A DNA stretch of 37,262 nucleotides from Scytalidium lignicola (taxonomy: Eukaryota > Ascomycota > Leotiomycetes), in the NCBI GenBank assembly GCA_002812745.2, contig NCSJ02000392.1, positions 1 through 37,262 on the forward strand, read 5' to 3'. Shown piece after piece: positions 4,628 through 37,262 of the stretch; the stretch's first letter is position 1; every line of letters begins with the position of its first letter. The notes beneath the pieces were generated by a model. That model was not told the DNA's origin, did not search any database, and was given only the letters and a program-made list of their open reading frames with translations. The translations under genes and the position numbers were made by a program.

Positions 4628-6282
4628 TTAGGAATCACCTGCAGTGACACCAGAATTGTCTGTACATGAGAATGCACCACCTGGGAATCAAAATCATTAT
4701 CAGTTATGTAGACTTCGAGCGATAGGCCACTTTAAGGTGGAATTCACTTACCAATGGTGCCATCAGCGTATGCAGCGATGATTTGTTTGATGACAGAGTA
4801 ATTGCCAGCAACACACATGAATGCTCCTAGGAGAATTAAGGAGATGTGGAAGAGCCACTGTAGCTTCCTCAACAGGCCCTCCTTCCGGTAATGTCCAAAA
4901 TCGTACAGCCAAAATAACGCAGGAAGCATAATTGTCAAGGGAGCGAAGCAGAATGACCCAATCATGGCAATTATGAAGCTAAAAATCGGAATCGCCTCAC
5001 ACAGGATGAATCCAATAGCTCCGATACTGGCCGTGCAACCAAGCCAAGTACCCCAGTGGACGATGCTATTGTCTTGAAGGTGCTTCGAGTTGCGTAGAAT
5101 CCGCACGAAGATGTATTTGGCAGCAACATGCATGTAGAGGCACGCAGAGACCACCAACCCGAAGAATCCAATTGCGTATGCAGCAATCTCGATGATACGG
5201 CCGGCACTTCCAAGCGAGGGGTTTGCAACCCACTGGCCACACCATCTATAGACAACCAGACTGAAAGCGAGGTATGTCATCTGAACAAGCACCATGCAGC
5301 AGTATACAGCCTTATTGTAGTCCTTTGGGTTCTTCATCTCAGAAATTACAGGCAGAAAGACCGGAGTTCCAGCAGACGACGCGAAAATGGTGAGGGAAGC
5401 TCCAACACCAGTAATAAAATCGGGACTGGCAATGACATGATAACCAAGCTCGAAATCACCTGTCCGAGGAGCAATGGCTGGTCTGTCTCTCGTAGTGACC
5501 CCGATGCTACATGTGATTAGCATGATATCTTGTTGAACTACCGGTGGAAAGAAATTACACAACGATGAAGACCGCGACATAGATAGAGGCAAATCCGATA
5601 TAGGTAAGGATTCCAATTTGGTGAAGTTTTCGAAAACTAGCAAGCGCAACGGCGAGTATGGTCGCTACGAGTGTAAACCATACAGTGCATACTGTCATCG
5701 ATTAGTCTCTTACACCAAAAACTCAACAGATGGAGACCTACTTCCGTGCTTAGAGAAGACATTGAGCGCAATCGAAATACCTAGGATGCCGGAACCGGCG
5801 CAGAGTATGCAGGCAATTATGAACATTGCACCAGTAAACTCTCGGAAGAAAACACCGCCAACTAGCTGGGCCATGTCCGCAACACTATGGCAACCAGGGT
5901 GACTATTTCGGAAGTTGCCTAGAACAATTGCTGAATATGTATTAACCAACCCCCAGCCTATGACCGAAAGGGAACCACCCACAGCACCCAGGTCAAACAT
6001 GGCAGTGGGAATACTAAGGACACCGGTTGCGAAGATGACTGTAAAATATTAGCATACCTGAAGTCCCATAACCGCATCACTATGGCTACCCTTCAAAAAG
6101 ATGGCTGAAGCTTTCGGCCATGATACCGTCCTAAAGTCGACCACGTCCTCGCCCCTCTTAAATATCTCAACCGCATTGGCTACCTCATCAGAATTGACTA
6201 CCTCAACGTCACCAGCGCTGATACTATCATTACTATGGCTTATGTGGCCCTTGTCGTCGGTCAGTTCCTTTTCGGTGCCCAT
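4628..6282 (-). CDS. Amino acid permease, AAAP family (Mtr-like neutral amino acid transporter)
   Basis: This gene encodes a plasma-membrane amino acid:proton symporter of the Aa_trans/AAAP family, closest by eye to fungal N-type/Mtr neutral amino acid permeases. Five exons read on the minus strand: 6282-6090, 6038-5742, 5691-5559, 5506-4752 and 4680-4628, giving 476 residues. Introns are 51, 50, 52 and 71 bp with GT...AG ends, and all phases fit. A hydrophilic N-tail of about 55 residues precedes FRTVSWPKAS and the first membrane segment (IFATGVLSIPTAM). Other recognisable family blocks are GAVGGSLSVIGWGLVNTY, GVTTRDRPAIAPRTG, FLPVISEMKNPKDY, SLVVYRWCGQW, HVAAKYIFVRILRNSKHL and VHWGTWLGC. 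About 11 membrane helices are expected. The last exon adds the usual polar C-terminus (AFSCTDNSGV). No stop or frameshift is seen, so the gene looks functional. The short ORF translations without splicing would truncate it. Confidence 0.93.
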
Positions 6283-6988
6283 ATTGTCACGTTATCTCCA
6301 GTGCAAAAAGACACTTTTCGCCGCACTTATCTCCAAACGTGTCCGATATTAGTCATTAAGCATTATGTATGCAGAGGCTCGAGAGAGTGGTCAACCTTAA
6401 TATAAGATATTTTTCAGCTCGACCAAAGGCGCTCAGTTTCATTACTGTACTACAGTATCTTCACCAGATAGCGAGAGATAAAGATTAAAAATAAGAGCCT
6501 ATAAGAGCCTGTAAAATACGTGCTGGATGCATTCAAACTGGGGTCTCCAAGATACAGTGATCTAATCAAGCAAAAGTGGTGTTCGGTACAGTATCCAGAG
6601 ATGCTGGTGGGTCGCAACAGAGCGGCATGAACTGGGGGTAGACTACGGGACGGTAAGGCAGGATCGATTCCTTCTTTACATAGGTTGTTTCCTATCTTAT
6701 CTTCAAGCAAACCTTAACTCTCTGGGATACTGTATCTGCCGATCTCGCCGAGACGGCCAAGGAAAAATTTCCAGTCAGTGTACGAAAAATCGCATAAGTC
6801 TAAGCGAAACATGGTCGAATCATGGTGACCCTGAATTCCTTATGTTCCCTCCAATATCTGGCCGTCAATTATATAAGCCGTAGAGATTCAGCGATTTATA
6901 TACTCCAAATTCTACAACATCTCGTTAGCCCTGGGATCTTAGAAAACAGAATTCGGTTTCAGTCAACCTGATTTTGGAAAATCCCATC
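6283..6988. promoter_or_regulatory. Divergent promoter region with GATA motifs
   Basis: About 700 bp separate the divergent starts of the amino acid permease (minus) and the lipocalin-like gene (plus). HGATAR-type sites, the binding motif of fungal nitrogen-regulatory GATA factors (AreA/Nit2 class), occur at 6292-6297, 6327-6332 and 6697-6702 (as TTATCT) and at 6476-6481 (AGATAA). Sites close to the permease start would fit nitrogen control. This is inferred from motif matches only; single GATA motifs are common by chance. Confidence 0.45.
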
Positions 6989-7630
6989 ATGATGTCTCTA
7001 CGCTGGTCGAGTATTTGCAGGGTATTTTGTCGGAATGCAATGCGGACTATGCCATCTCCATCACTCCTCCTTAGCATCACTCCTTACCAAGTCAGAGCAA
7101 ATCATATGACATCCAAGGATATCAATTCTCCTGAAACAAAACCATTGTCTATCCGTCAGCAACTAGCCGGCGCCTGGGAGCTAATTAACTACTATGCCTA
7201 CCTTCCAAACAACCCATCCGATATATTCTACCCCTTGGGACCTGACGCGACTGGCATCCTAATGTACACGCCTGACGGGTATATGTCAGTGCAGTTGCTC
7301 ATGCCAGGCCAGGCTCGATTCGAACGGGAGGACGGTTCTGAGAAGCAGTGGGCAGAGGTTGGTAAGAGCAGCACCACCTACACGGGGCCATTCTACCTGG
7401 ACGAACGGGGTGACGCACAGGGTAGACCCATCCTAATACACGATATGAGAGTCTCGAGTTTGCCATATTTTAAAGGGGAGAAGCAGAGGCGTCTCTTATG
7501 TTTCAGCGAGGAGGAAGATGGCAGGTACCTGGTACTGAAAGTGGACGGCACTATGAAGATGGGCGGGAAGCAGAGGTTTGTTGAACTGAGGTGGAGGAAG
7601 CTGCCGCACAATGAGAAGATGATGTCTTGA
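6989..7630 (+). CDS. Lipocalin-like domain protein, possibly mitochondrial
   Basis: Intronless frame of 213 residues from ATG 6989 (a second ATG follows at once; the open frame extends to a TTG at 6974). From about residue 52 the protein matches the fungal/bacterial lipocalin-like family (Lipocalin_5 type): QLAGAWELINYYAY, then FYPLGPDATGILMYTPDGYMS, a GPFYLDE segment and a C-terminal barrel strand series (RFVELRWRKL). Members are small beta-barrel proteins often encoded beside oxidoreductases, amidases or cyclases of catabolic or secondary pathways; a ligand is not known. The first 40 residues are rich in Arg and Ser and have no acidic residue, like a mitochondrial presequence. A later start at MTSKD (7106) would give a cytosolic form. 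The frame is intact. Confidence 0.8.
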   Translation: MMSLRWSSICRVFCRNAMRTMPSPSLLLSITPYQVRANHMTSKDINSPETKPLSIRQQLAGAWELINYYAYLPNNPSDIFYPLGPDATGILMYTPDGYMSVQLLMPGQARFEREDGSEKQWAEVGKSSTTYTGPFYLDERGDAQGRPILIHDMRVSSLPYFKGEKQRRLLCFSEEEDGRYLVLKVDGTMKMGGKQRFVELRWRKLPHNEKMMS

Positions 7631-8424: not shown

Positions 8425-8980
8425 CTTCTTATCTAGCTAATAAGTGATGCAGGGACAAATCAGGTTCTACCAAGTATGCATTTACTATCTTCATATAGCT
8501 GTAGTTCACAAATACTGTATTAGTCTTATCGTGGTTTAGTACTAAGAGGCGTTATCACTCAGTCCTTAGTTCTACTTGTACCTACTACAAGTAGAGTGCT
8601 AATTTCTTGAAAAGGTGGGATACGTTTGGATACGTTGATAATGAACCTTGAGACAGTTCCAACCAGTCGGATAGAAACCATACGTTTTATGGAGCCGACC
8701 TGAACTAATAATAACATAAGCCGAACGAGTCTCTACTTATATGAGATGATTTATTATTCACAAAGATTAAAGTGGGAGAATCAATTTCATGATCGGATAT
8801 GCGCCGAGCTACCCCCACCCTTAAATATTATCGATAGGAGTCAATCCTCCAATAACTGTTAAGTAAATCAGGGCTCTTCCTGTGAGGATATCTATCCAAA
8901 GGCTCCGAAATCTTTTACATGAATGCTTTCTTCTCTCATATATTCAACCTTGTCCCTTTAGAATCCGTCTCGCTGTGCAC
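8425..8980. other. Intergenic upstream of the cyclase gene
   Basis: No gene is recognised. A short inverted repeat (tctacttgtacctactacaagtaga, about 8570-8595) could form a small hairpin. The rest is presumed promoter and 5' UTR of the cyclase-family gene. Confidence 0.6.
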
Positions 8981-9965
8981 ATGGCGTCATCACTTCTTCA
9001 CATGTTCTATCGCCATCCCACTTCCGGGTTTTGTGCTTCTCAAATTTCATCCTCTGCACTGTTCCTTCGGGCTGCTAATGGCAGCTTTCGTAATTATGTC
9101 AAGTATCGACGATACGCAACAGTCTCGGGCAAGAAGCCTAAGATTGTTGACCTGAGTCGCGAATTGTATCATCGTGCTCTCGCGCATCCTTTCCACCCTC
9201 CGGTCATAATAACACCATGGGATACACATCAGCCAAAGCAGGAAGGAGACACAGTCTTGCGTTCGGCTTCGTATTCTATCTCATTCAGCGATCATGCAGG
9301 AACCCACGTCGATGCACCGAAACACTTCGATCCGTCTCCAGGAGCGTTGTCAGTTGACCAGATGCCGCTCGAGACTTTCTACACAGAAGGAATTGCACTG
9401 GATCTATCCCACGTGGAGCTCAAGGCATCTATTAGTATTCCAGAAATGGAGGAAGCATTGAAGAAGAGCGGGGAGGAGATTAAAGAGGGTGACACCGGTG
9501 CGTTTCCAGCCGGTGTATTTGGCTGACACTCCATAATTAATATCTGAAAAGTTTTGCTTTACATGGCGTTCAACAAGCGAGTTCATCAGGACGATCCACG
9601 ATGGCAGGTGAGTGAATTGGACATGCCACCATCCTAAGGATCAACCTTGCCGATCTAGAACGAGATTTCTAACGAGGCCCATCCAGCACGACTTTCCGGG
9701 TCTGGCACCAGAGTCGGTCCACTGGCTTGCGGACAAGGGTTGCAAGCTTTTTGGAGTAGAGGCGGTCTCGCCAGCACCAGAAGGTGAGCTCAACTTTAAG
9801 GCCCACAACATTTGCGGCGAGCGAGGCATTACGCATATGGAAGCGATGGACAATTTAGATCAAGTGATTGGCAAGGGGAGATTCAGGTTCATTGGATTCC
9901 CGCTGAAGTTCAGAGGAGGGAGTGGAAGCCCAATTAGAGCGGTTGCAGTCTTCGAATCGATGTGA
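8981..9965 (+). CDS. Cyclase-family hydrolase (kynurenine-formamidase-like)
   Basis: Three exons (8981-9497, 9552-9607, 9687-9965) encode 283 residues; the introns are 54 and 79 bp, phases 1 and 0. The family (Cyclase, PF04199 type) contains metal-dependent hydrolases such as bacterial N-formylkynurenine formamidase. Visible signatures: the opening VDLSRELYHRA, the metal-binding motif HAGTHVDAPKHF, EIKEGDT joined by splicing to VLLYMAF, the helix FPGLAPESVHWLADKG, then KLFGVEA, ICGERGITHMEAMDNLD and GFPLKFRGGSGSPIRAVAV at the end. ATG 8981 is chosen as the first in-frame Met. The N-terminal 50 residues (FRNYVKYRRYATVSGKK) look like a mitochondrial targeting sequence. No disruption is seen. 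A direct role in tryptophan breakdown is possible but unproven, since many fungal paralogues act on other substrates. Confidence 0.9.
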
Positions 9966-12262: not shown

Positions 12263-12376
12263 AGAGCTTATTTTCCCGTTCATATTAACCTCCAAAAAAT
12301 TTTCCCCTCCAAACGATTCTTGTTTTGATTCCTATAACGCTGACCAATCTTCTCGTTACTATTTCCACACTGCAGA

Positions 12377-14083
12377 ATGGCTGACAGGAAACCAGAGCAA
12401 CTGGAGAGAACAACCAGCGGGGTAAAGCTTGCGGACTCTGAGGTTCTTGCGATACTGGGGAAAAAGCAGGTTTTGAAGCGTCGTTTTGGATTCTGGACTC
12501 TCTTCGGATTCGCGGTCTGCGAATTGATTACATGGGAGACTGTTCTCGCATTGTTCAGCCAGGGACTCAACAACGGAGGTCCAGCTGGTCTTGTATTTGG
12601 TTTCCTGATCGCATGGCTTTCGACATTATCTGTATATACAGTCATCTCTGAGTTGGCGTCCATAGCACCCATTGCGTCGGGCCAGTATTACTGGGTGTAT
12701 ATGCTTGCACCGGCAAAGTACAAGAAATCCTTTAGCTATCTTGTGGGATGGCTCACATCTCTAGCTTGGGTAGCGACGGTAGCTACAGAGACCATCTTCG
12801 CTGGAACAATTATCCAAGGATTACTGATTCTTAACTATCCTGACTATGACCCAAAGCCTTACCAGGGGACCTTGTTTGCCTGGCTAGTCACGACAGTCGG
12901 TGTATTCATCAACGTCGTGATCCCTGACCAGCTCCCACGATTTGAGATCGTCATTCTCGTCCTTCATGTCGCTGGCTTTATTGCCATTCTTGCCACACTT
13001 TGGGCGACCTCACCACATGGCAGTGCTTCGGATGTATTTCTAACTGCATTCAATGAAGGCGGCTGGCCAACACAAGGACTCTCCTACTGCGTCGGGTTCC
13101 TCGGCAACGTTGCGACCTTTGTTGGAGCAGACGCTAGCGTCCATATGGCGGAGGAAGTCGAAGACGCTGCATCCAGCATTCCTCGAGTCATTACCAGCAG
13201 CATGATCTTCAATGGCTTGGTTGGTTTCGCCATGATGCTAACAGTCCTATTCTGTCTTGGTGATGCTGACACTGTCCTCGCAACTGAAACAGGCTTTCCG
13301 TTCATCCAAGTATTTTACGACTCAGTGCAGAATAAGGCTGGAGCAGTCGCCATGGGGGCCATCGTGCTGGTACTTACCTGGGCCTGCGCAATTGGAATCA
13401 CTACGACCGCATCGCGCATGACTTGGGCGTTTGCGCGCGACAAAGGCATGCCCTTCTCTAAGTACTTAAGTAAGGTCGCCAAGTACAATTCTATCCCAAT
13501 CATTGCCGTTGTGGCCGTATGTAGTTTAGCATGCCTGCTTAGCCTGATATATATTGGATCGGAAACCGCTTTTAACGATGTAATCTCCTTAACCATCACT
13601 GGTTTTTACGGTTCATACCTCCTCCCGTCGGTGTTGCTTTTCTACCATCGCCTGAAAGGGAATGTAGGAGGACATAGTACTAATAAGATTGCATCTGTTG
13701 CTCCGCAAACCCTCATCACCACAGACGAGGAAAAATCGACTATCCAGGACGAGCTGGAAATCGCTCTCCCGCCGCTGAACTGGGGGCCGTGGCATATTCC
13801 CGGTTTGCTGGGGATCCTGAACAACGCATATGCATGCGTGTACATGGTCTTTGTGATATTCTGGTCTGTCTGGCCACCCGAGACGCCTGTCACCGCGTTG
13901 ACGATGAATTATAGCGCAGTGGTAACCGGAGGGGTGCTCATTTTTGCAGGGCTGTGGTACATACTGAGGGCCAGGAGAGAATATAAGGGCCCGCTAGTTG
14001 ACCTGGAAGCTGCGAGCATTTTAAGGAGAGCTAGTCTTCTCTCGAGGGAGGATGCCGCGGTAGGGGAAACAGTAACTAATTAA
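12377..14083 (+). CDS. APC-superfamily permease (choline/GABA/amino acid type)
   Basis: Intronless gene for a 568-residue integral membrane transporter of the fungal amino acid/choline transporter group (relatives include GABA, choline and biotin-precursor permeases of yeast). A soluble N-tail ends in LKRRFGFWTLFGFAV. Then follow the family blocks ETVLALFSQGLNNGGPAGLV, SELASIAPIASGQYYWVYML, GWLTSLAWVATVATET, HMAEEVEDAASSIPRVI (the conserved loop of this family), ITTTASRMTWAFARDKGMPF and, before the last two helices, LNWGPWHIPG. About 12 membrane helices are expected. Substrate cannot be read from sequence; GABA, choline or another small amine are the leading choices. The frame is intact with ordinary codon use. 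The GATA cluster upstream points to nitrogen regulation. Minus-strand open frames over the same span are shadows. Confidence 0.92.
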   Translation: MADRKPEQLERTTSGVKLADSEVLAILGKKQVLKRRFGFWTLFGFAVCELITWETVLALFSQGLNNGGPAGLVFGFLIAWLSTLSVYTVISELASIAPIASGQYYWVYMLAPAKYKKSFSYLVGWLTSLAWVATVATETIFAGTIIQGLLILNYPDYDPKPYQGTLFAWLVTTVGVFINVVIPDQLPRFEIVILVLHVAGFIAILATLWATSPHGSASDVFLTAFNEGGWPTQGLSYCVGFLGNVATFVGADASVHMAEEVEDAASSIPRVITSSMIFNGLVGFAMMLTVLFCLGDADTVLATETGFPFIQVFYDSVQNKAGAVAMGAIVLVLTWACAIGITTTASRMTWAFARDKGMPFSKYLSKVAKYNSIPIIAVVAVCSLACLLSLIYIGSETAFNDVISLTITGFYGSYLLPSVLLFYHRLKGNVGGHSTNKIASVAPQTLITTDEEKSTIQDELEIALPPLNWGPWHIPGLLGILNNAYACVYMVFVIFWSVWPPETPVTALTMNYSAVVTGGVLIFAGLWYILRARREYKGPLVDLEAASILRRASLLSREDAAVGETVTN

Positions 14084-18723: not shown

Positions 18724-19047
18724 TTATAATTGGTCTGTTTTGAGTCCAATGCTCTTCCGGACATAAGAGATTACCTGTAGGTGAGTTTCCCAGTTGTCAA
18801 GTAGAGTGAAAGCCTCATACATTAGATGAGGCTTTGTAATTTGTCGTTTCCAATCTGTAAAAATATATAATTCTTGGATAAGAATAATATTAATAGAAGA
18901 GTCATTTGTTGGTGTAAGTACTATTTCATGTGAAGTAGTACCTCTTCCTACGTTGATCTGTAATAATGTAAGAGGTTTAGCCAGGTAACAATGGTTGTTA
19001 AGCATTAAAGGTAAGTAGTGAAAAGGGATTTGTAGTCTTAACTGCAA
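18724..19047 (-). pseudogene. LINE-A endonuclease (AP-endonuclease-like) N-terminus
   Basis: The minus-strand frame of 107 residues includes LLQINVGRGTTSHEIVLTPT, IILIQELYIFTDWKRQITK and HLMYEAFTLLDNWE. These blocks correspond to the first strands of the exonuclease-endonuclease-phosphatase domain of fungal LINE ORF2 (N-V-G-R-G, then I-Q-E with the catalytic Glu). The frame then ends at a stop at 18724 and continues only as broken pieces. The start overlaps the end of the ORF1 frame by about 50 bases. Confidence 0.8.
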
Positions 19048-19498
19048 AGTATTGATAGACGGACACTGTTATAAGGGGATCTGACAGAAGCCACTGAACT
19101 AGTGTTGTTGGAAGAGTTATAGATGGAGCTACTCCGTCCATCTGTATATCATTAGGTATTGTCCTAGTACAGTTTGTGGATAGGCAGGCTTTTTTCCAGT
19201 CCATTTTGCTGGCCTGAATAATAATGAAGCGTTCAGCTTTTGTAAGTGTCCGATTTGGAGTTGGCCGGACAGGGCATTTCAGGTCGTCTGCCAGATGGGG
19301 GCCTCCGCAATGTGCACATCTTGCCGGACAAAAATGCGGTTTTACGGTTGCACAGCGGGTGGAATGGTTCTCTTCAATGTGATTGTTAGATCCGCAAACA
19401 CGGCAGCGTTGAGGACGGGAGCAGCTTCTAGTGTTGTGCCAAAAGAAGCATCTTGTGCATTGAATATTCTTTGGTTTTGGAACCAGCAGATGGACAGT
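18998..19498 (-). CDS. LINE-A ORF1 C-terminal part with three zinc knuckles (partial)
   Basis: Open frame of about 166 codons without an initiator, read from 19498. It has the ordered Cys/His motifs typical of Tad-type ORF1 proteins: CTRCFFWHNTRSC, then CRVCGSNNHIEENH, then CAHCGGPHLADDLKC, followed by PVRPTPNRTLTKAERFI and MDWKKAC. In the family ORF1 binds the element RNA. Composition here is near normal and no cysteine is lost, in contrast to the RIP-worn ORF2 next to it. The N-terminal part of ORF1 is missing, so it is a fragment. Confidence 0.8.
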   Translation of the reverse strand, partial: TVHLLVPKPKNIQCTRCFFWHNTRSCSRPQRCRVCGSNNHIEENHSTRCATVKPHFCPARCAHCGGPHLADDLKCPVRPTPNRTLTKAERFIIIQASKMDWKKACLSTNCTRTIPNDIQMDGVAPSITLPTTLVQWLLSDPLITVSVYQYFAVKTTNPFSLLTFNA

Positions 19499-24740: not shown

Positions 24741-25645
24741 AGCTCCTCGAAACTATTTAATTGCCCTACTATATTAGCTGGACTCTCCCTGTAGATAGGG
24801 AGATAGGTTGCTGTTAAGTCTAAATTTAAAACCAATGAAAATCAATCGCATATTATTCATTATTTGTGCCCTATAATCCGCTCTCCATCTTAAATTCTGC
24901 AAATCATTGGGCTGCCTTCATACAATGTGCACCCTAAACTCTGAAAGGAAAATTCCGAACAGTATGACGAGCTGGTGGTCCGCTTCTTGGATTCTTTTAC
25001 TATTTCTGTGACACAGTATGAAATTCCACCAGCTGTTAAGTGATGTAATAATAACTTCTTTGGAATCCCAATAGAATTTCCCTTAGTATTATTGCTGTAA
25101 TTGTTTAGACAAATTGACGTTTGCGTCGAGTCCTAGTGTTGGCGATACAGGCAATACCGCATTCGCACTAGGCATGTCAATTATGATTGACACAGGCTTT
25201 CGCGATTTGCAATCCATCTCTTGCAAAATTATTTATGAAGGACTGCCCTGGAGTTTCGTGTGGCTGATGTCTTTCCTGGTATAAACAAGTCTCTTTTGAG
25301 TCTTGAAAATAACCACTAATATGTCCATAATATATAGATCGCCACGTATACGTTAATTTATCTGATACAGAACTTATACTTCCATTCGCTAGTACCCAGG
25401 GCCACTACTTGCACGTTCAAGCTTGGTACATTCTTATTTCCAGCGGTAGTTAGATTTTGAAGTGAGAGTATAAACTTTTGAATGCTGAAAGAGAGTCCCA
25501 TCATAGCTATGGCGCATTGTTTACTCAGTAGGGGGCAAATTTCACCGGGCAATTGACCAACAGCGTAAAACGTGTGGTTCGCTTCACATTTATTCGACAC
25601 ATTCGATTAATGCTTTCAAATTCATGAACTCTAATCAATTATGTA
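24741..25645. other. Intergenic, no gene recognised
   Basis: Moderately AT-rich. An open frame on the minus strand at 25358-25600 has no recognisable domain. The final bases (ctaatcaattatgtag, to 25646) look like the branch point and acceptor of an intron leading into the P450 fragment, whose upstream exon was not found. Confidence 0.55.
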
Positions 25646-26044
25646 GGACCAGTATTTCGAGTCTCTCCAAACGAGCTCTCCTTTGCCTCCGTGGGTTCCT
25701 GGAAAGCTACATATGACCATCAGAAGGCTGGAAACCTAATTCTAATTAAGAGTAAGTTCTACGAAATGTATGGCTCCGGATATAAGTCATTGTCTATTGG
25801 CAGGAAACGAGATCCAAAAAGGCATGGCTCAATGAAAAGAAATCTCTCCGCTGCGTTCTCAACACGAGCGCTCATGGAGCAAGAATCGGTAGTCAATTCT
25901 TGCGTTGATGGATTTGTAAGATTGGGATATGAGGGAGTCTCAAGCGAAGGATCTCAACCTGACTAAATGGTATGAAATGATATCTTCTGATATTTTAGGG
26001 GAAATGGCCTTTGGGGAATCGTTTCATGCAGTCTCACCACATCG
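25646..26044 (+). pseudogene. Cytochrome P450, N-terminal-region fragment
   Basis: A frame from 25646 reads GPVFRVSPNELSFASVGSWK (the beta-1/B-helix block of fungal P450s, P-x-V-R-I-S-P-N-E-L-S-F), then RDPKRHGSMKRNLSAAFSTR, ALMEQESVVNS (the C-helix block with a basic residue before the A-F-S motif). After a +1 frame change near 25925 it continues DLNLTKWYEMISSDILGEMA and FGESFHA (normally D-x-x-x-D-L-A-F-G-E-S-F), up to a GTAAAT donor at 26045. About 130 of some 500 residues are present. The I-helix, ExxR and heme-Cys motifs are missing from this window, so it is a truncated pseudogene. Confidence 0.85.
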
Positions 26045-32390: not shown

Positions 32391-35217
32391 TATGTTATCG
32401 TTAGTGGACTAGTCATGTATAGACATGATCAGTCATATACTAGTTAGTCTTAATTAGGTAGTGAGGAGCTGTAGCCTTAAGCTATAACTTCATCTTACCA
32501 CCTTTACAATTAATCAACCATCAACACAACTAGTATATTACCTATAAAGTAACGTATTATGTGTTATCGGTAATGTACTGACATTGATCAATTTGTACAT
32601 ACAAATCAGGAAACTATAACCTCGTTTTATAATAATCCGGTGGCTTGTCTTGTTGTCAAGGTTTTGAGGCTTATTTGTGTTTGTTTACAAAGTATCCTTC
32701 TTAAGAAGCTCTTCTTCTGCTTAGAACTTATAAGTCTTCAGTTAAAGGGGAGAAGCATTATATTTCAAAGGAAATATATTATTTCTTGTCAAATCTAAGT
32801 AGTTAGCCTTTTGACCTTTTGAAAATACTCTTTTATAACCTTTCACTTTTATTTGAATATACTCCTTTATAATATACTCCTTATAACAAATACTACTCTT
32901 TATAATACTCTTATAACTTTAAAGATTATTATACTCTTTTTATAACTTTTATAACTTATAATTATAACTTAAACCTTACTTAATCTTATACTTTACTTTT
33001 GAATTATACTTATCAAACTCTTATATAACATACATATATATAAAAGAATATTTAAAGGAAACTATACTTAAGAAGACTTGTTAAGAAGTTATAAATATCT
33101 TTAAATATAACTAAAAAGCCTTTAAACTTCAAAGTCTATTACTTATAAGTAAATATTCTTTATATTAAAGTATAACTAATTTTAATATTTAAGTTACTTA
33201 TATATCTTGAAGTTAATACTTATATATAAGGATGTTAAGTATAAAAGAATAAGAAGAATAAAAGGAAAAGACAAAGAGATGGAAATATAAAATACATATT
33301 AAAAGTACATTATTAAAAGGCTTAGAAGAATTCTTAACTACTAAAGTTTATAAATATAAATCTAACAGAATTAACAATTTTAACCTTTAAGACTTATTCT
33401 AAGAGGATTTCGAATATTTCACAATAAATAACTTTTATACAATTCCTTATAAAGAATTGTAAATTTATATATATATATCTATTATAATAATGTTTGTATA
33501 ATAGTTAATAATAAGAATAAGTTGATTATATAAATGTTATATAACATACTTAAGAAAGAAGAATAATATATATAAACTAAAAAANGACTTTAACAAAGTT
33601 ATTTAAGATCTTCAAAAAGGGTTTATTACTTTTATAGTTATTAGACTAAGAACAAACCTTACAACCTTATAACCTAGTCTTTATATAACTTTATACCTTA
33701 TTTCATCTTATAAAAGTTAACAACTTACTTTTTTTTATAACTTAACAAAGTAATGAATAATTAACATTTAGAATTAAAAGATAATTATAAGAATAGTATT
33801 ATAAATAACTAAACAAGTAAATGTAAAATAACCTTAACTTTTCATTATATAAAGTTAATAAATATATTTTTAAGATTTTAAAAGTCTTGACTAAAGAATA
33901 AAAGTATAATAAAACTAATAACAACTTTAACCTTAAGTTAATTATCTTCAAAGATATTTACAAAAGAGTAAAACTATTAAAAACAAACTTTATAAAGGTA
34001 TTCCTTACAATGTTGAAAAGGTTAGTTTAAAATCATTTTTATAATAATCAATTGTTAAAACATACTTTTAAAAAGGTATATATTAACCTTTGTAACTTCT
34101 TTGAAAAACTTAATTATTATTGTTGAAATCTAAGTAAATAGAATTATATTACTTTAACTTTGATTGTATTTAAGAATTATAAGAAAACAACTTAAGAGTA
34201 TATATAATTACTTATTAATAAACTTTAAGAATTATAATATAACCTTTATCTAACTTTAAAAAATGTTAAATTTCTTTATAATAAGATAATTATAACTTGT
34301 TAAGGATTACTTACATATAAGTATATAATAATAAACTTACCTTTAGACTTAAGATAGTTTATTAATAAACTCTAATCTTCGATTATTATATATAAGAAGG
34401 AACAAGAGCAAAACAAGACTTTCTTCATAAATTATCATTACTTTAACAAGAATTTAATTAGTCATAAACATAAAGACCTTTTAAACTAAAACTTTGAACA
34501 ATATACTATGAATATACTTATATTCTACTAATAAAACAAGTATTTTATATATAAGAAAAAANGGTTATTACTTATAAAAGTACTTACAAGAGAAATAAGA
34601 TGAGGAGAAGGCTAGATTCAAGGCTAAGAATATAAATTAATTTAATATTAAAGTTTATAATTTTAACAAACATTTTGATGAATACTTTAAATAATATATT
34701 ATTGATTATGAAGGTGACAATTTAAAAGAGGAATTAAAGACTACTTTTAAAGCTCTTTTAATAAACAAGAACAATGAACTTAAACAAGATAATAACAATA
34801 ATAATCTTCTTATAACTTTTATTACTTTGTTTAATAATCTTTTAGTACTGTTATAAAGCTTGTAAATAAGGCTTTTATGTACTAACTCATTATTAAAGTG
34901 CTTACTCTAATCATTAAAACACTTACACTTACACTTACTAAAGTAATTATAAGTGTATACAATATAACCAACATAACAAGATATAATTCTAAACAGTTTT
35001 ATAAAATCATAATTAATACAAGAACCTCCAAATACTTTATAACCAGTTATAACCAATTTCAAGCCTTATAACAAGTAGACAAAAGTATTATACTTAACAA
35101 TGTTATACAAGGTATAATAATTATATAATTTAGTATAGGATTTACTTCCTTAATAAGCTTTATAATAATAATTACACTTATTAATCAAATAGAATTTTAC
35201 ATTATTCAAGTAGATAT
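32390..35217 (+). mobile_element. Ty1/copia-like retrotransposon (gag and protease), extremely RIP-degraded
   Basis: One of the most AT-biased blocks of the window. A candidate 5' LTR region (about 32390-32700) has tgttatcg(t/g)ta motifs at 32392 and 32562. From about 33290 the plus strand reads as a gag protein with many stops; from 34330 it gives FINKLQSSIIIYKKEQEQNK, NFEQYTMNILIFY, a zinc-knuckle relic with Cys replaced by Tyr, FNIKVYNFNKHFDEYFKQYI and LKQDNNNNNLLITFITLFNN. This leads into an aspartic protease block, IIINTRTSKYFITSYNQFQA, where the family has D-T-G-A-S-K-Y. The D-T-G-A codons (35015-35026) have changed by three G-to-A steps. The sequence stops at 35217, just after the protease, at the start of the integrase element. 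Confidence 0.75.
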
Positions 35218-35218
35218 A

Positions 35219-35310
35219 TGTTCTAGGCCATACGCCAACCCTGACCATTGGCCAACGGCCTAGGCCATACAGCAATTTGACAGTTGGCCTATGGCCTAGG
35301 CCATACGCAA
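35219..35310. repeat. Left-end subterminal repeats of the integrase element
   Basis: The motif ctaggccatac occurs three times in direct orientation (35223, 35260 and 35296), twice as part of the palindrome ggcctaggcc (35257-35266 and 35293-35302). Inverted fragments ttggcc and ccaac lie between. Repeats of this kind at the boundary of a degraded copia element mark the probable left terminus of the inserted DNA transposon. Confidence 0.7.
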
Positions 35311-37262
35311 ACTACTGATTCAACTTACCTACCCCACCATGGCGGTGTAGCTTATATTTCTCCCACTTTGCTACCTTTCTCCTACTTTGCTACCATTAAT
35401 TGAATAATTCTTTACTCAAAATGGCTTCAATTGAATCAATCAACCCATTCCCTAACGATGTTCACTTTGCTTTCCAAGATTATACATATGGCAAAGGCTA
35501 TATTAATAAAGAACAAATCAATCCAGAACATTGGCAAAGAATACATATGTTTTTGGACAACCCAAGCCTTAAACCTGAAAATCAAGTAGATACCAACTTG
35601 AAACACAGAGCACTTACTCAATTTGAGCTTCAGAATGGCCAATTATATCAATTAGCAAATTCAAATCATCCAAAACCAAGATATGCTATTTAAGATAATA
35701 AGGTATTTGATATTATTATTCAAGAGTATATCAAACTCCTTTATACAAGGTATAATAAAGTATAATCTGTTATTGAGCAAAATTATTATAGAATCAAATA
35801 TCAAGATGTTATATAAGTACTTAAAAAAGTGCAAAAACTGTATGTTAAACAGGTTATCTATTATAAAAGCTCCTTTTGAACTTATAATTTCAGAACAAGC
35901 TTAAGAACAAATTCAAGTTGATTTGATTAATATAAGGCATGAACTTTCTGGCTAATATAAATAAATATTACATATTAAAGACTATTTTACCAAATATTCA
36001 CAGTTATATACTCTTAAAAGCAAGGAATCCTTTTTAATAGCTTGAGCATTTAACTAATTTATTATAACCTTCTTACCTCTTAAAATTGTATAATATGACA
36101 ATAACAAGGAATTCAAAGGTGCTTTCCTTATTATATTACAAAAATATAATATTCAAATTATTAATAAAAAGCCTTGAATACTTTAAACTTAAGGTTTGGT
36201 TGAGCAAGTAAATAGAGTGATTAAAGTTAAATCAGGGTATAGAAAGCAGATAATAGTTCAACTGAATAAGTTAATGATTTAGTAAAGGTTGTCTTAACAA
36301 TAAACACTCAAAAATACTTAACAATCAATTGCCTTCTTGTTGAATTACTATTCAGAGATTGTAATACTTTTATTGATTAGCTAGATAGTTAAAAACAAAA
36401 AGACCTTTCAATTAGAATACTTCAGGAGGATTCTAATAAGGCTCTTATTTTTGAGAGTAATTTAGAACCTGACTTATTAATTGATCTACAACTATTATCC
36501 TTAAGCAATTCAAGAGTTATTATTAATATTCAATCACTATCACACTCTTAATTTACTATGCAAATTAGCCTTGAAACAAGCTTAGAAATCAATGTACAAA
36601 TTACTCCATTAATCAAGAATTCTCTTGAACAATAATATGATGCTAAAACCAATATTGAAACTAGTATTAAGGTTGAATCTTCTATGACTATGGCTTTTAT
36701 AACTATTATAATTACAATTACTAGAATTATAGCAAATCAACCTATAGATTCAGTGATTCAGCAAGCTTAAAAATCAACACAAAAAGCAAGGATTAGAATA
36801 ATAAAAAAAGTACTCTAAAAAGCATACTATTCAGCATTTTAAGGTTAGAGATATTGTCTTAATCAAGATTCCTAAGGAGGACAGAACAGCCACTGATAAT
36901 CGACAGTTGTACAGCCAAATATTAGCTGAACCACATCATAATAGATATCAAGTTATTACTCAATCAGGAGTCCTTGAACACTTGATGCCTACCAAGGAAT
37001 TAAGGGTAGTTGATCAAAGCCTTTGGTCAGATATTAACATTCCAAAAACCACCAAAAAGGTTACATTAACTGTAACAGTTAAGGAGGCATCTACTAGCTA
37101 GCGAATTGGTATATCATGCTAGTGTAAAGGTCAGTATAACACCAAAAGATGTCGTTGTTTCAAGGAAGGAAAGGATTGTACAGTATATTGTCATAAGGAC
37201 GAGTATGATTGTGGAAGGTTGTCAAGGCTAGTTATTCGCACTGAACAAGCCTTAATTGAACT
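35220..37262 (+). mobile_element. KRBA2/Ginger-like integrase-type DNA transposon, partial (runs off the window)
   Basis: It begins at the ggcctaggcc repeats and encodes a retroviral-type integrase without gag, protease or reverse transcriptase, followed by a cysteine-rich C-terminus. That arrangement is what Ginger-type cut-and-paste elements and the related KRBA2-like genes show. It appears inserted into the copia protease region at about 35218. The right end lies beyond 37262, so the TIR and target duplication cannot be tested here. RIP-like stops are frequent but milder than in the copia host. Confidence 0.65.
35421..37262 (+). pseudogene. Retroviral-type integrase with C-terminal CXC-like module, disrupted
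   Basis: From ATG 35421 (MASIESINPFPNDVHFAFQD) an N-terminal domain of about 90 residues precedes a zinc-binding segment (KKCKNC, about 35830) and the integrase catalytic core. The core has Asp in QVDLINIRHELSG (35920-35922), KDYFTKYSQLYTLKSKESF, Asp in YDNNKEFKGAF (36097-36099) and Glu in GLVEQVNR (36202-36204), a D,D-35-E type spacing. Then come KVRDIVLIKIPKEDRTA-like sequence, LYSQILAEPHHNRYQVI and a Cys-rich end, CKGQYNTKRCRCFKEGKDC then TVYCHKDEYDCG (37114-37220). Stops occur at many former Gln codons (for example 35691, 37099, 37120), with a frameshift in the A-run near 35822 and further ones near 36210-36240. The stop codon of the gene lies outside the window. Confidence 0.75.

Follow-up and report, generated by a model that had tools for sequence, protein, structure and literature searches.

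At its right-hand end, a contig of the leotiomycete Scytalidium lignicola carries an integrase-coding sequence directly behind the remains of a retroelement, which raises the question of whether the integrase belongs to those remains or to a mobile element of its own. The window analyzed here is the whole contig (C324, 37,262 bp). It holds the left 2044 bp of the element (35219 to 37262), and the right end is absent because the element runs off the contig end. A sequence-only reading had already noted that only the left end was present and had proposed an integrase-only element of KRBA2/Ginger type, with a cysteine-rich tail, in a filamentous ascomycete; the host is indeed one. We conclude that the element is very probably a Ginger2-type cut-and-paste DNA transposon whose copy in the window is inactive. 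The first base of the element is exactly 35219, where the sequence opens with TGTTCTAGGCC. The features are as follows.

33200 to 35218, + strand: host repeat, an AT-rich decayed piece of a Copia-like retroelement (its left limit is set by the query)
35215 to 35218, no strand: left copy of the target TATA, directly before the first element base
35219 to 35316, + strand: left terminal inverted repeat (TIR), with reverse-orientation matches at right ends elsewhere
35224 to 35238, + strand: 15-bp TIR motif TAGGCCATACGCCAA, with a further copy at 35297 to 35311 and a degenerate one near 35261
35421 to 37262, + strand: decayed transposase gene, truncated by the contig end
35727 to 35841, + strand: degraded integrase H2C2 zinc-binding domain, placed via alignment to relatives
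35905 to 36231, + strand: integrase catalytic core (D at 35920 to 35922, D at 36097 to 36099, E at 36202 to 36204)
36805 to 37098, + strand: C-terminal integrase segment behind a variable linker, at a guess SH3-like
37117 to 37218, + strand: CXC-type cysteine cluster, with one cysteine altered and one stop in the window copy

Alignment to an open-frame copy from the same genome shows that both catalytic aspartates and the glutamate are still present in the window copy. The same comparison revealed 21 in-frame stops and three frame changes, and the window copy is therefore dead. Its C-terminal integrase segment (36805 to 37098) is 67% identical to that of the open-frame copy, and positions 37123 to 37260 are 85% identical to that copy's tail, which bears out the cysteine-rich, CXC-like tail of the sequence-only reading. 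Between the window and four other copies, substitutions from C:G to T:A (213 to 235) outnumber the reverse (72 to 100). Classic CpA-directed RIP was not established as the cause of decay, the CpA/TpG preference being weak (Fisher P = 0.02 to 0.5).

We searched the S. lignicola genome (46.85 Mb, 664 contigs) for further copies, whose existence had been anticipated. The window element has at least 68 DNA matches on dozens of contigs (from the best 40 of 70 candidates scored), far above chance, and at least 13 other places match it at 71 to 91% DNA identity across about 1.8 to 2.1 kb. A 98-amino-acid C-terminal block is matched at 46 places, the window among them. The mould genome holds dozens of copies, mostly decayed. 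On C68, a copy retains one uninterrupted frame of 676 codons spanning the whole protein; at one zinc-ligand position, this open-frame copy (P0001) deviates from the family.

We examined 29 loci, including the window, and both ends were present in 15. These two-ended copies measure 2,201 to 2,573 bp from end to end, and L010, a relative with 91% identity to the window copy, measures 2,293 bp; with the C63 copy (2,065 bp), full-size copies range overall from about 2.1 to 2.6 kb. Each element has a single integrase gene, of H2C2 and DD34E type and with a CXC-type tail. In self-comparisons, 10 of the 15 have inverted arms of 107 to 168 bp, and shorter arms occur in L014 (61 bp), L025 (51 bp), and L028 (82 bp). 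Only arm pieces of 21 and 24 bp were recovered in L011, the right end of which is 99% identical to the window TIR over 100 bp, and inverted arms were not found in L018. The window stretch from 35217 to 35316 matches, in reverse, beyond the right ends of the copies on C177 (99%), C366 (81%), and C100 (82%) and partly on C657. The outermost bases are TGTTC on the left, in the window as well as in the other copies whose ends were examined, and GAACA on the right. A genome search with a TIR-end pattern found 139 ends and none for the reversed pattern; because the pattern includes TAT, this search carries no evidence on the target. L016 (C355:27348-32133) consists of two copies in head-to-tail order with one TATA common to both.

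The sequence-only reading had taken a repeated ggcctaggcc to mark the element ends and had expected it, inverted, at a right end. Inverted repeats are indeed found at the far ends of other copies. The palindrome GGCCTAGGCC (ggcctaggcc) is present at two places in the window, 35257 and 35293, and outside it in only 3 of the 15 two-ended copies (L010, L011, and L014), and it was accordingly rejected as a hallmark of the family. What is conserved in the TIRs is instead a repeated 15-mer, TAGSCCATACRCMAA, which with its variants recurs every 36 to 40 bp; 11 of the 15 two-ended copies show this array in one or both TIRs. In the window, three 23-nt repeats are spaced by 37 and 36. We consider the spaced 15-mers to be putative transposase sites.

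The flanks of the copies define the target. Identical 4-bp flanks border 13 of the 15 two-ended copies (TATA in 10; TATC, TATG, and TATT once each), the exceptions being L018 (CATG/TATA) and L023 (TATA/TGTA). Flank identity at other lengths was found in 0/15 copies at 3 or 5 bp, 10/15 at 2 bp, and 4/15 at 6 bp, the last being TATATA runs. Among seven further full-size copies, four have matching flanks, all TATA (C68, C656, C58, and C355b), although C355b is not independent because its left TATA is common to it and a neighboring copy. The other three have unlike 4-mers (C63, TATA/AATA; C27, AATA/TATA; C339, TATT/AATG). The target duplication, which the sequence-only reading had put at 4 to 6 bp, is thus 4 bp long in 17 of the 22 full-size copies. 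Flanks paired across different copies likewise agree at 4 bp in 111 of 210 cases; as TATA flanks often match between copies, the 4-bp length is proven best by the three non-TATA pairs. The six-base target fits RTATNY in 14/15 copies (20/22 with the further copies; flank background, 0.78%) and RTATAY in 11/15 (16/22; flank background, 0.29%).

The site in the window is also known in its unoccupied state. The genome contains at least six nearly full-length relatives of the repeat at 33200 to 35218, and all six of the other copies of the interrupted repeat that were compared run through the insertion site. These unoccupied paralogues read GATATA (four copies) or AATATA (two copies) followed by C or T, and the window at the same point reads GATATA and then the transposon. 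The repeat is therefore not part of the transposon but its landing site. We call it Copia-like because its copy at C252:3040-5070 (- strand) has an integrase match and then an RVT_2 match on the same strand. An integrase-bearing element has jumped into a retroelement, and the window alone could mislead in this respect.

Short copies repeat the pattern. Six TIR-to-TIR pairs of 85 to 398 bp, chosen from the genome-wide TIR-end matches, have TATA on both sides in every case. When the flanks of the short C628 copy are joined, they match at least 38 other genome places (from the best 40 of 97 candidates), and all 38 matches cross the junction. Five of these loci, representing four distinct sites, were aligned, and each has a single target copy, which is TATA at two sites and TATG or TATT at the others. 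For the short copy on C19, a genome search of the same kind matched only the right flank beyond the copy itself, and no empty site was shown. L061 (C131) was ruled out as a short copy, as its two ends face the same way and form no pair. By eye, the interiors of the short copies L049 to L053 are partly unlike, as if they belonged to several non-autonomous families.

To characterize the transposase, we aligned 55 protein rows, namely, 54 picked from at least 120 listed relatives and the genome's own open-frame copy. The integrase assignment of the sequence-only reading holds under profile searches: the rve domain scores above the Pfam cut-off in P0001, and a PDB profile search retrieved the PFV (E = 2.8e-24) and Ty3 (E = 2.3e-14) integrases. 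Across the alignment, rve is present in 53/55 rows and Integrase_H2C2 (PF17921) in 48/55. The spacing between D260 and E295 is 34 residues. The closest named relatives, among the matches listed, include Metarhizium proteins (P0013, 62%). The motif YPYY is absent from all 55 rows. GP[YF] is absent from the query and present in eight rows: it lies in the core in P0059, P0062, and P0065, probably in the core in P0066 and P0070, in the linker in P0056, and toward the C terminus, well beyond the integrase part, in P0106; P0054 also has it. As a control, the genome's own Gypsy integrase (L071) carries GPY. In a tree of 52 of the 55 rows (P0050, P0068, and P0076 were dropped as short) with the genome's own Gypsy and Copia, the relatives stand apart from both (support, 95/94); the long branches of the Gypsy and Copia sequences make the placement unsure.

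The claim that the element is integrase only, without a reverse transcriptase (RT), is likewise upheld. None of 150 RVT_1 matches (the best 150 of 285 candidates scored) and none of 127 listed RVT_2 genome matches lie inside the 15 two-ended copies, as judged by eye with profiles that would miss very decayed RTs. The sequence-only reading had named a long terminal repeat (LTR) or an RT as the mark of an ordinary gypsy-type retroelement; the copies contain no LTR and no listed RT match, and the retroelement remains upstream are the Copia-like landing site.

The C-terminal cysteines follow a CXC-type pattern of our own making (C-x-C...C...C-x-C...C...C) in 42 of the 55 rows, including snail, crustacean, and sea-cucumber rows and four of the five rotifer rows. 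Some of the 13 rows without it, such as P0068 and P0070, end early; others include P0117, P0024, P0043, and P0064. The name CXC rests on the cysteine spacing, because the Pfam CXC models score below their cut-offs on P0001 (preSET_CXC, 14.6 bits against 23.3, E = 0.047; TCR, 9.0 against 23.5); preSET_CXC reaches an E value of ≤0.01 in one of the 55 rows.

According to the available text of PMC2836005 (Bao et al. 2010), Ginger2 elements have TIRs of 50 to 180 bp, a 4-bp target site duplication, the target RTATAY, and TGTNR ends, and their transposase has H2C2 and DDE domains but neither YPYY nor GPY/F. TIRs, a 4-bp duplication, an RTATAY target, H2C2 plus DDE, and a query protein free of YPYY and GPY/F are all found here, so that structure, duplication, target, and domains place the element with Ginger2 as described in print. 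The ends agree in TGT, but the element has TGTTC in place of TGTNR, and for this reason we file it as Ginger2-type without assigning it to a Ginger2 family. TGTNR is also the pattern of Gypsy and Ginger1 and is therefore descriptive of Ginger2 rather than separating. The KRBA2/Ginger assignment of the sequence-only reading is thus borne out and narrowed to Ginger2 as opposed to Ginger1, on the strength of the RTATAY target and the absence of YPYY.

The CXC tail, the TGTTC ends, and the arrays of 15-bp TIR motifs might instead point to a distinct superfamily beside Ginger2. The departure from TGTNR would fit this, as would the absence of the words CXC and tesmin from the founding paper (PMC2836005) and the separation, in the tree, of nine animal-side rows from the remaining 43 relatives (supports of 94/80 and 87/70, not the strongest class). 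All other tested features fit Ginger2, however, and the CXC tail is also present in animal relatives, including one from Littorina saxatilis, for which a Ginger2 has been published. A separate superfamily is therefore improbable. Even less probable is a Ginger1 element (GIN type). Inverted repeats, a 4-bp duplication, and TG ends are common to both types, and Ulp1 or PHD domains, which are Ginger1 traits, occur in the relatives P0097, P0106, P0107, and P0114; but Ginger1 inserts at CCGG/CCGT and its protein carries YPYY and GPY/F (available text of PMC2836005), whereas the target here is RTATAY and the query lacks both motifs. Finally, a leftover integrase region of an ordinary Gypsy or Copia LTR retroelement, as the integrase-like protein and the Copia-like element directly upstream might suggest, is refuted by copies that are bounded by inverted repeats instead of LTRs and hold the integrase gene within 2.2 to 2.6 kb from end to end and by unoccupied sites at which the upstream element is uninterrupted, and the lack of listed RT matches inside the copies and of GP[YF] in the query, against the GPY of the genome's own Gypsy, makes such an origin scarcely credible.

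For the Ginger2-type transposon, we propose that a single protein, comprising a retrovirus-like integrase and an added C-terminal CXC-type cysteine cluster, would recognize the inverted repeats (mostly 107 to 168 bp) via the spaced copies of the 15-bp motif. It would join the TG...CA ends to the two strands of an R-TATA-Y target at points separated by four bases, and the four-base stagger would lead to duplication of TATA or a close variant. The duplications and the unoccupied sites together show that the ends are joined at TATA with a 4-bp stagger. The CXC tail may bind zinc and have a DNA-binding role. The element is presumably excised as DNA. We saw neither an excision event nor a footprint, and cut and paste is assigned from the family; the inverted repeats, the absence of RT matches, and short copies unable to encode the protein are consistent with it.

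Elsewhere in the window, Pfam identifies ordinary genes for an amino-acid transporter (4744 to 5664, - strand), a Lipocalin_5 protein (6929 to 7630), a cyclase (8867 to 9523), and an amino-acid permease (12344 to 14083), as well as a SAM methyltransferase (PF08241; 27178 to 28260, - strand). Near the latter, a P450-like piece (25628 to 25966) was noted by eye and has no Pfam hit. Pieces at 1150 to 1731 and 2480 to 2959 resemble pogo/Fot1-type transposases by eye, with no such Pfam family, and a cysteine-rich, knuckle-like open reading frame at 18998 to 19498 (- strand) resembles by eye the first open reading frame of a Tad-type LINE, also with no Pfam hit.

The Ginger2 kind is already known, mainly from animals and slime moulds, and the available text of PMC2836005 gives for fungi a single Malassezia protein without TIRs. 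Beyond the papers cited here, searches of open-access papers, judged from titles, abstract starts, and counts, listed none recognizable as a structural description of a fungal Ginger2 family or as a report of a CXC tail in Ginger2-like proteins, and no papers on transposable elements of S. lignicola were found in the open-access literature. The present work adds an ascomycete family whose anatomy is complete and for which duplicated targets, empty sites, and short non-autonomous copies are all documented, and it draws attention to a conserved cysteine cluster at the C terminus of the transposase that lends itself to testing. Annotation should benefit too, as such fungal proteins are recorded as SCAN domain-containing protein 3 or hypothetical protein. 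It is possible, if rather doubtful, that the CXC cluster, so far unreported in Ginger2 transposases, goes back to their ancestor, has been retained in fungi as in rotifers, molluscs, and crustaceans, and reads the 15-bp motif or TATA. If so, animal KRBA2-like genes would be tamed or live members of the Ginger2 line with a sequence-reading tail.

Compared with the Ginger2 elements in the available text of PMC2836005, the element shares TIRs of tens to less than 300 bp and the TGT start. It differs in its fifth base (C), in being slightly smaller (Ginger2 is near 2.8 kb in several families), in combining a fungal host with a complete inverted-repeat anatomy, and in its CXC tail, undescribed in that text. 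The same source places in Ginger2 the integrase-bearing DNA elements TDD-4 and TDD-5 of Dictyostelium, with 5-bp duplications and TIRs of 260 to 297 bp, against 4 bp and mostly 107 to 168 bp here. In Metarhizium brunneum V275, DNA/Ginger-2 is listed among the repeat classes (PMC11457142, available text); given the Metarhizium proteins among the closest named relatives, it is likely the same kind, although the entry is a class label only, without element structure. The IS481 family (NCBIfam NF033577) comprises related DDE transposases, which P0001 matches at E = 3e-19, under the curated cut-off; the IS481EU elements of parabasalids have duplications of about 4, 15, or 25 bp (PMC10045372, available text). 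Styx of Zymoseptoria, likened here by its description in the available text of PMC10853768, is fungal, has inverted repeats and an integrase coding sequence, and has many decayed copies, but its TIRs are 36 bp and its target duplications 6 bp long. Among animal proteins, the KRBA2-like and SCAN domain-containing protein 3-like P0098 and P0106 (28% and 26% identity in alignment A1) have the same architecture to the last cysteines.
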